DNA from: Rhodococcus qingshengii
Lineage (GTDB): Bacteria; Actinomycetota; Actinomycetes; Mycobacteriales; Mycobacteriaceae
Direction of reading: 5' to 3'
Assembly (NCBI RefSeq): GCF_021025955.1
Contig: NZ_JAJNCL010000007.1
Location: forward strand, 62,001-126,000
DNA: 64,000 bases
Part shown: in pieces, positions 42,595 through 48,575 of the stretch
How the letters are laid out: the number at the start of each line of letters is the position of its first letter
Position numbering within the stretch: position 1 is the first letter of the stretch
Position numbers and translations under genes: made by a program
The notes under the pieces: model-generated
The model's input: the letters and a program-made list of their open reading frames with translations, nothing else
Database searches by the model: none
What the model was told of the DNA's origin: nothing

Positions 42595-43266
42595 GTGGCC
42601 GAAACGACGGTTGCCGCGGTGATGGAAGAATTGGCTGCTCTCGAAGATCCGAAGGCGCGTGTGGTGAACGAGAAGCACGGTGACGATCACGGTGTGAACC
42701 TCACAAAGCTGCGCGCTGTTGCGAAGCGGTTGAAGACTCAGCAGGAACTCGCACAACAGCTTTGGGCCACGGGCGATACCGCGGCGCGGTTGTTGGCCCT
42801 TTTGATCTGCCGCCCGAAGGCGTTCGAGCGTGACGAGTTGGATGTCATGTTGCGTGAGGCTCGAACTCCCAAGGTGCAGGACTGGCTCGTCAACTACGTG
42901 GTGAAGAAGAACCCGCACGCCGAGGAGTTGCGGGTGGCCTGGACCGCTGACCCTGATCCTGTGGTCGCTGGCGCCGGGTGGGCTCTGACCACCGAACGTG
43001 TCGCGAAGAATCCTGAGGATCTTGATCTTTCAGGACTACTCGACGTCGTCGAGGTGGAGATGAAGGATGCCCCTGATCGCCTGCAATGGGCGATGAATCA
43101 CTGCCTGGCTCAGATCGGGATCGAACATGTCGGGTACCGCGCCCGGGCAATCGAGATCGGTGAGCGGCTGCGGGTGCTCGAGGATTACCCGACTCCCCCG
43201 AACTGCACCTCGCCGTTTGCGCCCATCTGGATCGCGGAGATGGTGCGACGGCAGAGTGCAAAGTAG
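42595..43266 (+). CDS. DNA alkylation repair protein (AlkD-like HEAT fold)
   Basis: 223 residues, all helical. The pattern VVNEKHGDDHGVNLTKLRAVAKRL and the paired helices that follow (DVMLREARTPKVQDWLVNYVV; LQWAMNHCLAQIGI) fit the AlkD/AlkC HEAT-like glycosylase family, which removes alkylated bases without base flipping. GTG 42595 with GGAGGACGA upstream. A repair role is inferred from the family only. Confidence 0.85.
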   Translation: MAETTVAAVMEELAALEDPKARVVNEKHGDDHGVNLTKLRAVAKRLKTQQELAQQLWATGDTAARLLALLICRPKAFERDELDVMLREARTPKVQDWLVNYVVKKNPHAEELRVAWTADPDPVVAGAGWALTTERVAKNPEDLDLSGLLDVVEVEMKDAPDRLQWAMNHCLAQIGIEHVGYRARAIEIGERLRVLEDYPTPPNCTSPFAPIWIAEMVRRQSAK

Positions 43267-44487: not shown

Positions 44488-44676
44488 CTAGCGGGAAGTT
44501 CGAAACTGTGTCCGGTACCGCTGTGGGCTGGTGCCGACCAAGTCGCGGAAGCGTTCGCGGAACGTGGTGACGGCATTGAATCCGACTTGTCCCGCAACAC
44601 GTTCGATCGAGTGGTCGGTAGTCTCGAGCAGAAATTGCGCTTGGCGGAGCCGCGCGTGATGGAGGCTCATCAGCTC
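44488..44676 (-). pseudogene. C-terminal fragment of an AraC-family regulator
   Basis: About 62 residues read ARLRQAQFLLETTDHSIERV, then GFNAVTTFRERFRDLVGTSP QRYR, the second helix-turn-helix of AraC proteins. The first helix-turn-helix and the ligand domain are missing; sequence upstream of 44676 is not AraC-like in any frame. Remnant of a deleted regulator, perhaps of iron uptake, given the neighbour. Confidence 0.75.
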
Positions 44677-44929
44677 GATCGCACTCACCGCCGTTGCCGC
44701 CGTAGTACTTACAGCGGTAGTGCTCCCGCCCAGCGGCTGATTCTGGCGGCGATCGAAGGAGCTGGGTCCGGCGTGGACGTCGCAACGCGGCTCACCCGCC
44801 GATTGGGTGCTGCGACGGGAATCTTCAAGCTGCTGTGGGTCGTCGTCGTTGTGCTGATGATCTTTCGGCCAGGATCGACAACCGGTGTGTGAACCGAGGC
44901 GATGTTTCACGTGTCGGTGACAGCGGCGC

Positions 44930-44960
44930 TTGACCTTGACACAGTGACAAGGACTCCAAT
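44930..44960 (+). promoter_or_regulatory. MerR-type promoter with 19-bp spacer and dyad operator
   Basis: -35 TTGACC (44930-44935), -10 TCCAAT (44955-44960), spacer 19 bp. Within it CCTTGACACAGTGACAAGG (44934-44952) is a near-perfect 19-bp dyad, with only the centre and one symmetric pair unmatched. This is the classical design where a MerR protein twists the DNA to activate transcription. It drives the HEAT-protein/MerR pair. Confidence 0.8.
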
Positions 44961-44983
44961 GGTCGACGAAGGAGGTGGTTGTC

Positions 44984-45640
44984 GTGAACACAACCAACCA
45001 CGGTGGGCAGAATGCTCACCTCGTCGATGCACTGGCCGCAGCTGATCCCTCGGTTCGGCTGCGCGCCGCGCTAGCCGCCGGCACACGCCCGGACCCTGAG
45101 CTGACGAATGCCCTGGTCGATCGGTGTGCCGTCGAGCCGGACTTCTTCGTCCGCGACATGTTGACCTGGGCATTGTGCCGCCTGCCGGCCGAAATCACCG
45201 TGCCGAGGCTGATCCGTGAGCTCGGGTCCGACGGTTCGCAAGCCCGCAGCCAGGCGCTCCACACCTTGTCCAAGATCGGCGATCCGATCGCGTGGCCCGA
45301 GGTCTCTGCGCTGGTTCACGACCAGGACGACGAAGTCGCGCGCAGCGCGTGGCGTGCGGCCGTGGCTCTCGTGCCGGTAGGAGGTGAAGGTGCACTCGCG
45401 ACCGATCTGGCCACCGAACTCGGACGGGGCGAACTCCAGATGCAGCTCAGTCTCAGCCGAGCTCTGACAGGACTCGGCGAGGCTGTACTACCTGTGCTCG
45501 ACGCGGCCGGTGCAAGCCCGAATCCGCGGGTTCGGGCGCATGCTGATGCTACAAAGCAACTCTGGCACGACCCCGACGGTGGCTTCGCTCTCTCACACGA
45601 GTTGGCGAAGCGCGTCGCGGCAATCGGCCCGGACGCGTAG
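44984..45640 (+). CDS. HEAT-repeat protein, partner of the MerR-HEAT regulator
   Basis: 218 residues from GTG 44984 (GGAGGT eight bases upstream; GTG 44975 is possible). Repeated helix pairs of about 30 residues: SVRLRAALAAGTRPDPELTNALVD; FFVRDMLTWALCRLPAEITVPRLI; SQARSQALHTLSKIGDPIAWPEVS; EVARSAWRAAVALVPVGGEG; and others. Such alpha-solenoids bind proteins or DNA. It shares its transcript with the MerR gene 13 bp downstream. Because the regulator also carries HEAT repeats, a direct complex is plausible (inference). Confidence 0.85.
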   Translation: MNTTNHGGQNAHLVDALAAADPSVRLRAALAAGTRPDPELTNALVDRCAVEPDFFVRDMLTWALCRLPAEITVPRLIRELGSDGSQARSQALHTLSKIGDPIAWPEVSALVHDQDDEVARSAWRAAVALVPVGGEGALATDLATELGRGELQMQLSLSRALTGLGEAVLPVLDAAGASPNPRVRAHADATKQLWHDPDGGFALSHELAKRVAAIGPDA

Positions 45641-45653
45641 GAAGGGGAGACGG

Positions 45654-46688
45654 ATGTTGATCGGCGAGGTCTCGCGGCGTTGTGGTGTCAGCACACGGAT
45701 GCTGCGTCACTACGACACATTGGGGCTGGTGAAGCCGACGGGCCGCACGTCCGGCGGTTACCGCGAGTACTCCGCGGACGACATCCGTCGACTCTTCCAC
45801 GTCGAAAGCCTGAGGACCTTGGGGCTCTCGTTGAACGAGGCCAAGCGTGCACTGGACGAGCCGGACTTCGCCCCAGCCGATTTGGTGGGTGAACTGATGC
45901 AACACACTCGGCAACGGATCGCGGCGGAGGAGGAATTGCTGACCAAACTCGAAAGGGTCGACGCCACCGCCCCTTCGGAGTGGGACGACGTCCTGCGCAT
46001 GGTCTCGCTGTTGCGTGCACTCGAATCCGAGTTCGCTGCCCACCGTCAGCAAGCGATCCTGTCGCAGGACGCGAATGCGGCATTGCCCGTCGACGCACTC
46101 GTCGAAGCCATCCTGTCGGAGAAGGATGCCAACGTGGCTGGAGCGCTGCAATGGGCGTTGGCGAGGACCGAAGGTGCGGGCCTTGAAGGTCTCACGAAGG
46201 GGCTCGAATCGGAGGACGTCGAGGTTCGACGCCGCGCGACGTCGGCCATATCCGGGATCAACACCGAGGAAGCAACTCGGTCTCTGAAGCGAGCTCTCGA
46301 TGATTCGGACGCGATAGTCCGCGCCGACGCCGCCCTCGCCCTCGGATCTCGCGGAGAGGCTGTCTCGATGCCCGCTCTCCTCGAGATGGTCGCCGATGGG
46401 CGGCGCGACGTCGAGGCCGGCGAGGTCCTGGGCCTTCTGGCGGAGCGCTCACCTGCAAGCGGCGAAGTCGTCGCAGCAGTGCAGGACAGGCTCGATAACA
46501 CCGACGACGCCCCGACGCGGTTGCGGATCACGCAGGCGCTCGCCGAGATTCCCGGCGCGGCAGCACAGGAAGCGCTCGCCCGGCTCACCCACGACGACGA
46601 CAAAACGATCGCGTCGACGGCAGCCGCTATCCTCGAGATGCGGGACCGTGGACCACGCCGACGCGAACGACCGCGTATCGGGAGCTGA
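45654..46688 (+). CDS. MerR-family regulator with C-terminal HEAT repeats
   Basis: 344 residues. Residues 1-70: MerR winged helix (MLIGEVSRRCGVSTRMLRHY onward, then GYREYSADDIRRLFHVESLR). Residues about 75-125: coiled-coil dimerisation helix. Residues about 130-325: HEAT/PBS-lyase-like repeats (DVEVRRRATSAISGINTEEA; DAIVRADAALALGSRGEAVS; KTIASTAAAILEM). No metal-site cysteines or TipA drug domain, so the solenoid itself is probably the sensor. GAAGGGGA precedes ATG 45654. The matching MerR operator lies upstream of the pair, implying autoregulation. Confidence 0.9.
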   Translation: MLIGEVSRRCGVSTRMLRHYDTLGLVKPTGRTSGGYREYSADDIRRLFHVESLRTLGLSLNEAKRALDEPDFAPADLVGELMQHTRQRIAAEEELLTKLERVDATAPSEWDDVLRMVSLLRALESEFAAHRQQAILSQDANAALPVDALVEAILSEKDANVAGALQWALARTEGAGLEGLTKGLESEDVEVRRRATSAISGINTEEATRSLKRALDDSDAIVRADAALALGSRGEAVSMPALLEMVADGRRDVEAGEVLGLLAERSPASGEVVAAVQDRLDNTDDAPTRLRITQALAEIPGAAAQEALARLTHDDDKTIASTAAAILEMRDRGPRRRERPRIGS

Positions 46689-48080: not shown

Positions 48081-48575
48081 ATGGCAATGTCGCGTCGGAG
48101 CCGCCGTGATGTCCCACCACCCCGGACAGGGAATAGCGAGACCGATACGCTGCGCGCGTTTCTCGACTACCTGCGTGATTCGATCGCTGCCAAGGTTGAG
48201 GGCGCTCCGGAACCTAAGGTGCGCACCACAATTGTTCGGTCGGGAACAACCTTGCTCGGGCTGGTCACTCATTTGACCTTTGTCGAACGATCGATGTTTC
48301 TCGCCGAAAACGTGACGGATTGGAAAGCGACCTTTCATCCGTCATCGGAAGACAGCGTGGACGAAGTCGTCCGTCGCTATCGAGAGACGGTCGAGCGCGC
48401 CAACGCAGTTCTCGACGGATGCGCAGATCTTGCCGCACCCATCCCGCGACCGGGGGCGAAACGACCAGCTCCCAGTGTCCGCTGGGCGCTCGTGCACATG
48501 ATCGAAGAGACCGGACGCCATGCCGGGCACGCTGACATCGTCCGCGAACTGATCGACGGTTCAGCCGGCCGGTGA
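48081..48575 (+). CDS. DinB-family (DUF664) protein
   Basis: 164 residues. Four-helix DinB/MST fold: SETDTLRAFLDYLRDSIAAK, VTHLTFVERSMFL (first metal His), and HMIEETGRHAGHADIVRELI (further metal histidines). Members of this group act as metal-dependent thiol (mycothiol) transferases. GAAGGAGA precedes the start. Confidence 0.88.
   Translation: MAMSRRSRRDVPPPRTGNSETDTLRAFLDYLRDSIAAKVEGAPEPKVRTTIVRSGTTLLGLVTHLTFVERSMFLAENVTDWKATFHPSSEDSVDEVVRRYRETVERANAVLDGCADLAAPIPRPGAKRPAPSVRWALVHMIEETGRHAGHADIVRELIDGSAGR

Follow-up and report, generated by a model that had tools for sequence, protein, structure and literature searches.

MerR-family regulators have been classified according to the signals that their sensors detect, namely metals, redox signals or drugs (accessible text of PMC9909328). 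The TipA class (TipAL/TipAS, SkgA) consists of 'minimal autoregulated' drug sensors, according to the accessible part of PMC7762955, and in TipA the effector domain is made as a separate protein as well (accessible part of PMC2893106). Here we analyse a gene pair of Rhodococcus qingshengii in which a MerR regulator carries a HEAT-repeat solenoid as its sensor (MerR-HEAT) and is preceded by a gene for a stand-alone HEAT protein (the HEAT partner). The pair lies in a 64,000-nucleotide stretch of contig NZ_JAJNCL010000007.1 (positions 62,001 to 126,000, forward strand), referred to below as the window. We propose, with evenly balanced confidence, that it forms a TipA-like, self-contained autoregulated switch in which MerR-HEAT senses a ligand and mainly induces the HEAT effector. 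Sequence comparison shows the pair itself, its spacing and dyad, a recurrent site at its own promoter, the kinship of partner and sensor, the persistence of the HEAT gene without the MerR gene, and links to MerR-TipAS proteins.

The window regulator has the MerR_1/MerR winged-helix domain of its family (coordinates and scores for all features are collected in Table 1). A preliminary description of the locus had placed a HEAT sensor where other MerR proteins carry a metal loop or a TipAS domain, and this holds: the regulator matches MerR_1 and HEAT_2, no TipAS or GyrI-like domain is found among the Pfam matches of either pair protein up to E = 1, and the structural models show a MerR winged helix and a HEAT solenoid instead of a known ligand domain. 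The sensor has no invariant cysteine. By structure comparison the winged-helix domain is close to MtaN, TipAL, CadR and SoxR structures; the TipAL DNA-binding domain (2vz4) is among the 50 structure matches listed by VIA-align, while AlkD, TipAS effector domain and AlbA structures are absent from those 50. The stand-alone HEAT gene, likewise correctly recognised from the start, ends 13 nucleotides before the MerR-HEAT start codon and has a second possible in-frame GTG start at 44975. Ahead of both genes, TTGACC and a spacer of 19 base pairs (bp) give the classical MerR promoter geometry that had been claimed, a layout matching the one in the accessible text of PMC9909328. The dyad sits in this spacer as described and is imperfect, with half-sites CCTTGACAC and CCTTGTCAC.

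The promoter motif of the pair is conserved far beyond chance. The best score was 19-24 of 24 in 160/160 distinct pair loci (repeat loci removed; L195 dropped because its contig end was too close) and 12-16 in 320 control windows taken from downstream stretches and reversed sequence. Since the consensus was derived from L007-L092, a second batch of loci provides an independent measure, and here 105 of 106 scored at least 19, the exception being L195. A dyad inside a spacer of 19-20 bp between -35 and -10 elements, a feature of the MerR family, was present in every one of the 160 loci scored. Exactly 19 bp after TTGACC these loci share a hexamer with T (0.97), C/T, C/G, A (0.87), A/C and T (1.00). 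The fourth base of the right half-site is A in 80% of loci and the symmetry-expected T in 12%, so the dyad is conserved in a slightly asymmetric form.

Genome-wide searches allowing up to three mismatches found 21 sites in 18 pair-carrying genomes. Eighteen of these, one per genome by their coordinates, lie at the pair's own promoter; one of the remaining three precedes a truncated HEAT relic (G074) and two precede other MerR genes. Among 18 genomes that gave no MerR-HEAT match at the family or class thresholds stated below, the motif was found twice: once in G023, ahead of a truncated HEAT remnant that has lost its MerR-HEAT gene, and once in G052 with three mismatches. The reversed motif pattern gave one match across 52 genome searches. 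We observed separately (L224 3139-3441) that the second motif copy in G074 is exact and, with the truncated HEAT remnant behind it, forms a decaying duplicate of the module.

Using the window MerR-HEAT protein as query, orthologs were found in 22 of 28 genomes of the genus (source genome included; one, G021, is split over two frames), in 133 of 251 genomes of the family at E <= 1e-25 (a few only partially), and in 67 of 394 genomes and 22 of 138 genera of the class at E <= 1e-40 (with a query alignment of 30 orthologs). The distribution of the pair across actinomycetes is therefore wide but patchy. A set of 80 named loci of up to 13 kb each, the best 80 of 583 confirmed relatives in a GTDB genome scan, includes Nocardia, Streptomyces, Amycolatopsis, Micromonospora, Kribbella, Actinomadura, Microbispora and Nocardiopsis. 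Streptomyces and other actinomycetes carrying the module are known for antibiotics. The HEAT gene stands upstream of MerR-HEAT in 78/78 ortholog loci of a first batch, which omits L029-L034 and L036, where nothing but the DNA-binding region matches, and L035, which repeats the location of L028, and in 106/106 loci of the second, the two batches sharing some loci. Gene pair and dyad are thus kept together in relatives, a point that the preliminary description had left to be checked. Counted from the stop codon of HEAT to the start codon of MerR-HEAT, the gap in the first batch is -14 to +31 nucleotides, which suggests that the two genes may be translationally coupled; in the second batch at most 161 nucleotides separate the HEAT alignment from the MerR start. 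In the plasmid records examined, the genes are annotated only as 'HEAT repeat domain-containing protein' and, for the other gene, as 'MerR family transcriptional regulator' or with the same HEAT repeat name.

The HEAT partner and the MerR-HEAT sensor are, by profile comparison, related solenoids. They align at E 1.6e-6 (hhalign) and share 16 identically conserved aligned positions, where shifted controls reach no more than 6; the positions conserved in both include R, E, W and R. Within the hairpins, conservation is highest on the second helix (B), in the partner (0.849 vs 0.654) as in the sensor (0.747 vs 0.638), and the conserved residues are assigned to the concave face from the order of helices in the models, not from coordinates.

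Beyond the pair itself, no conserved neighbour was found across the 80 named loci, in which an imperfect open reading frame caller recovered MerR-HEAT in 69 and HEAT in 58, so that a sparse neighbour could be missed. The widest recurring neighbour family occurs in 10/80 loci, mostly just upstream of MerR on the opposite strand, and is probably an antisense artefact. Given the lack of a conserved neighbour, the HEAT gene is the natural output of the promoter.

The HEAT gene also occurs without the regulator, while a complete MerR-HEAT gene without HEAT was not found among the 133 family and 67 class genomes with MerR-HEAT. Both proteins are present in 132 of the 251 family genomes, HEAT only in seven (truncated in G023) and a partial MerR-HEAT only in one (G251). 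HEAT matches at E <= 1e-8 occur in 77 of 388 class genomes: 66 belong to the 67 MerR-HEAT genomes, one is a 52-residue fragment (G612) and ten are untruncated HEAT-only cases. The 67th MerR-HEAT genome, G619, has its HEAT gene too, found in the second-batch locus analysis. Sixteen sampled genomes in all (six from the family, ten from the class) therefore carry an untruncated HEAT gene without MerR-HEAT. In these genomes no MerR match extends past model residue 133, and four have none at E <= 1e-10. Upstream of these genes the motif scores 20/24 in L254, a dyad relic, 17/24 in L256 and below 17 in the other 14, and genome-wide it was found in 3/16, each time directly before another MerR gene. 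It follows that the operator is kept where MerR-HEAT is kept. Because the HEAT gene persists without its regulator, it has a use of its own.

The sole functional clues are links to MerR-TipAS proteins, which point towards antibiotic-type sensing. On two Deinococcus plasmids a single protein matches MerR_1, TipAS and HEAT in Pfam (L279 4257-5801, L280 4257-5789). The TipAS matches are partial, with 37.7 bits in one and 25.0 in the other, and the HEAT parts match the window's HEAT partner at E 1e-15 and 3e-20. Read by eye, the sequence before these fusion genes holds what looks like a promoter of their own, with TTGACT and, 19 bp further on, TACGGT or TACCGT. In Hoyosella (L245 2824-4567) a relative of the HEAT gene and a MerR-TipAS gene (TipAS E 4.9e-17) are arranged divergently; the HEAT gene lies behind TTGACC, 19 bp and TAGCCT, again read by eye. 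A start codon of this Hoyosella HEAT gene comes 7 nucleotides after the -10-like hexamer, so that its message may be leaderless.

From these comparisons we infer DNA binding, activation, a ligand and its sequestration by the module. At its own promoter, a MerR-HEAT dimer would bind the dyad that lies in the over-long spacer of 19 bp. A ligand would occupy the concave groove of the MerR-HEAT solenoid; it is probably a natural product or some toxic small molecule. The ligand-bound protein would distort the DNA such that RNA polymerase can use the promoter, which would lead to production of the HEAT protein and of more MerR-HEAT. The HEAT protein, which shares part of the sensor's conserved face, would be the output, binding and then sequestering or processing the same ligand. 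A more general claim, which we hold a shade less firmly than the switch itself, is that this represents an undescribed and widespread HEAT-solenoid sensing module, in which a MerR-fused sensor and a free, related effector are controlled mainly from their own promoter and are evolutionarily exchangeable with TipAS domains. If true, HEAT repeats would be a ligand-recognition fold for bacterial one-component regulators.

Several observations weigh against this model. The TipAS links come from three loci only, with one TipAS match barely over the cut-off (25.0 vs 23.8 bits), and when 374 class genomes were queried with the Hoyosella protein, all 20 matches were ordinary pair-type HEAT genes and no other HEAT/MerR-TipAS pair of this type came up. 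The overlap of conserved positions between partner and sensor is by itself modest (25/119, P 0.008), and the partner and sensor profiles each score the Deinococcus and Hoyosella HEAT proteins above each other; the two are thus not mutual closest relatives, and a recent duplication is not shown. Three of the HEAT-only genomes (those of loci L249, L250 and L251) measure only 1.3-1.4 Mb, and HEAT genes in genomes this small suggest a useful basic role rather than drug defence. The limit of three mismatches means that weaker target sites could be missed. Finally, most residues conserved in the presumed groove are basic or aromatic (R, K, H, W), a composition that suits nucleic acid or another anionic ligand as well.

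Two alternative explanations are, in our judgement, unlikely but deserve consideration. Firstly, the HEAT partner may be a co-regulator that pairs with the MerR-HEAT solenoid, as CpcE does with CpcF, and so holds or releases the activator, with a signal that breaks the complex. The related suggestion in the preliminary description, that the HEAT partner is itself the signal, is less likely because the HEAT gene persists without the regulator in the 16 genomes above, a better fit to an effector. Secondly, and with a similarly low probability, the ligand may be anionic, whether a macromolecule or a metabolite (nucleic acid, nucleotide, phosphorylated or acidic peptide), and held in a basic, tryptophan-lined groove, such that the module reports damage or stress, an idea raised in the preliminary description. 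The partner residues conserved at 90% or more, which include R25, R57, W62, R66, R88, H93, K97, R120, W123, R124, R159, R184 and H186 and lie mostly on B helices, speak for such a ligand. However, acidic residues (E51, D58 and D116) are likewise conserved in the same groove, the HEAT partner has no AlkD-type Pfam match (PF08713, none up to E = 1), an AlkD gene neighbours the pair in just one of the 80 named loci, and the association that was observed involves TipAS antibiotic-recognition proteins. A third explanation, that MerR-HEAT is a broader regulator with its own promoter as one target of many, we consider distinctly improbable, since although the mismatch limit and the similar dyads at other MerR genes would allow it, there is one strongly conserved site per genome and the extra sites at up to three mismatches in the pair-carrying and HEAT-only genomes precede other MerR genes or a HEAT relic.

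Table 1. Features of the MerR-HEAT/HEAT locus and nearby genes, in window coordinates. pLDDT, predicted local distance difference test.
Feature	Position	Strand	Basis
-35 element TTGACC of the pair's promoter	44930-44935	+	Sequence; per-base conservation 0.97-1.00 in 160 distinct pair loci
Operator: imperfect dyad CCTTGACACAGTGACAAGG within the 19-bp spacer; presumed MerR-HEAT binding site	44934-44952	.	Sequence; motif scores (binding presumed)
-10 element TCCAAT, spaced 19 bp from -35	44955-44960	+	Sequence; consensus T(C/T)(C/G)A(A/C)T at that spacing
Shine-Dalgarno GGAGG	44971-44975	+	Sequence; promoter alignment G/A-rich at columns about 40-46
Stand-alone HEAT protein, 218 amino acids, proposed effector	44984-45640	+	GTG start; Pfam HEAT_2 4e-13; AlphaFold solenoid, mean pLDDT 92.9
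MerR-HEAT regulator, 344 amino acids	45654-46688	+	ATG start; Pfam MerR_1 3.5e-16, HEAT_2 2.9e-16; AlphaFold mean pLDDT 89.4
MerR-HEAT residues 1-68, winged-helix DNA-binding domain	45654-45857	+	
MerR-HEAT residues 74-104, long dimerisation-type helix	45873-45965	+	DSSP on model; dimer role presumed from MerR family
MerR-HEAT residues 110-331, HEAT solenoid sensor, seven helical hairpins	45981-46646	+	Model; related to HEAT partner
AlkD-type DNA_alkylation protein	42595-43266	+	Pfam 1.4e-20; 1.7 kb from pair
Mycothiol-S-transferase near pair	48081-48575	+	3.4e-38

A link between the pair and the window's AlkD-type gene, a nearby gene to which the preliminary description saw no direct link, is unsupported and was rejected. 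Searched by tblastn with the window AlkD-type protein, 106 loci gave a match in L123 alone; the 80 named loci are those long enough to tell, and the single homologue near a pair is a very close relative. Beside the pair, the minus strand has an open reading frame at 44488-44997 with part of an AraC-type helix-turn-helix (HTH_18, 1.7e-10, covering positions 28-79 of the 80 in the profile). It resembles a truncated AraC regulator, and its frame crosses the promoter of the pair in antisense.

Some further observations concern the HEAT genes. In about 20 pair loci (e.g. L015, L165, L168) the expected HEAT start lacks a usual start codon, being ATC in several, and the sole common start codon there is a GTG within the Shine-Dalgarno sequence, which would imply either initiation at ATC or a nearly leaderless start. 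At two loci (L253 2886-4699, L255 1120-2821) a regulator-less HEAT gene lies directly 3' of a gene whose product matches Clp N-terminal domains and nothing else (identified by Pfam for L253 and by similarity for L255), possibly a decoy protein. A match to the HEAT protein is also present in the unannotated phage MT835720.

The locus offers two practical openings. The pair's promoter is defined at the level of single bases, and placing these 60 bp before a reporter would allow a direct ligand screen. In addition, the 16 HEAT-only genomes provide a clean case of operator decay upon regulator loss.

As to what has been described before, no paper on the MerR family together with HEAT repeats was found in the literature searched, which covers few subscription papers; a HEAT-solenoid sensor for MerR regulators was not met there, nor was a characterised MerR-HEAT/HEAT pair, in keeping with the preliminary description. 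A term search of the accessible text of PMC9909328 found no mention of HEAT. The accessible part of PMC11272600 reports slight helix-turn-helix and HEAT signatures in some homologues of Ccr1, and mentions MerR for BldC alone. The thiostrepton-uptake pair of Planobispora was considered as a known counterpart and rejected (accessible part of PMC2893106).

AlkD DNA glycosylases have a HEAT-like fold, and an AlkD-type gene lies near the window pair, but the HEAT partner itself does not match PF08713. The HEAT (PBS-lyase-like) proteins CpcE/CpcF and NblB differ in gene context, and against the curated NCBIfam models the window proteins reach at most 31.5 bits, with cut-offs of 220 (CpcF), 300 (NblB) and 330 (CpcE). 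The module shares with the classical MerR activators (MerR, CueR, SoxR, BmrR; accessible text of PMC9909328) a dyad inside a 19-bp spacer, but differs from them in having a HEAT sensor, with neither a GyrI-like domain nor an invariant sensor cysteine, and in that the recurrent site found is that of its own operon with the HEAT gene. The TipA class is also among the closest systems. As in that class, a MerR winged helix and long helix are followed by a C-terminal alpha-helical effector domain; the regulator apparently controls its own promoter, where the motif was found in 18/18 cases with three extra sites elsewhere; the effector domain also exists as a separate protein, here seemingly as the product of a related HEAT gene that shares an apparent operon with the regulator; and the Deinococcus relatives unite MerR, TipAS and HEAT. 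Unlike the TipA class, and as a further point against a TipA-like reading, the window protein has no TipAS domain (PF07739, none up to E = 1), and the free effector is a separate gene, first in the operon, rather than an in-frame product of the regulator gene. The module thus seems TipA-like in its working yet lacks TipAS, and is therefore not filed as TipA.
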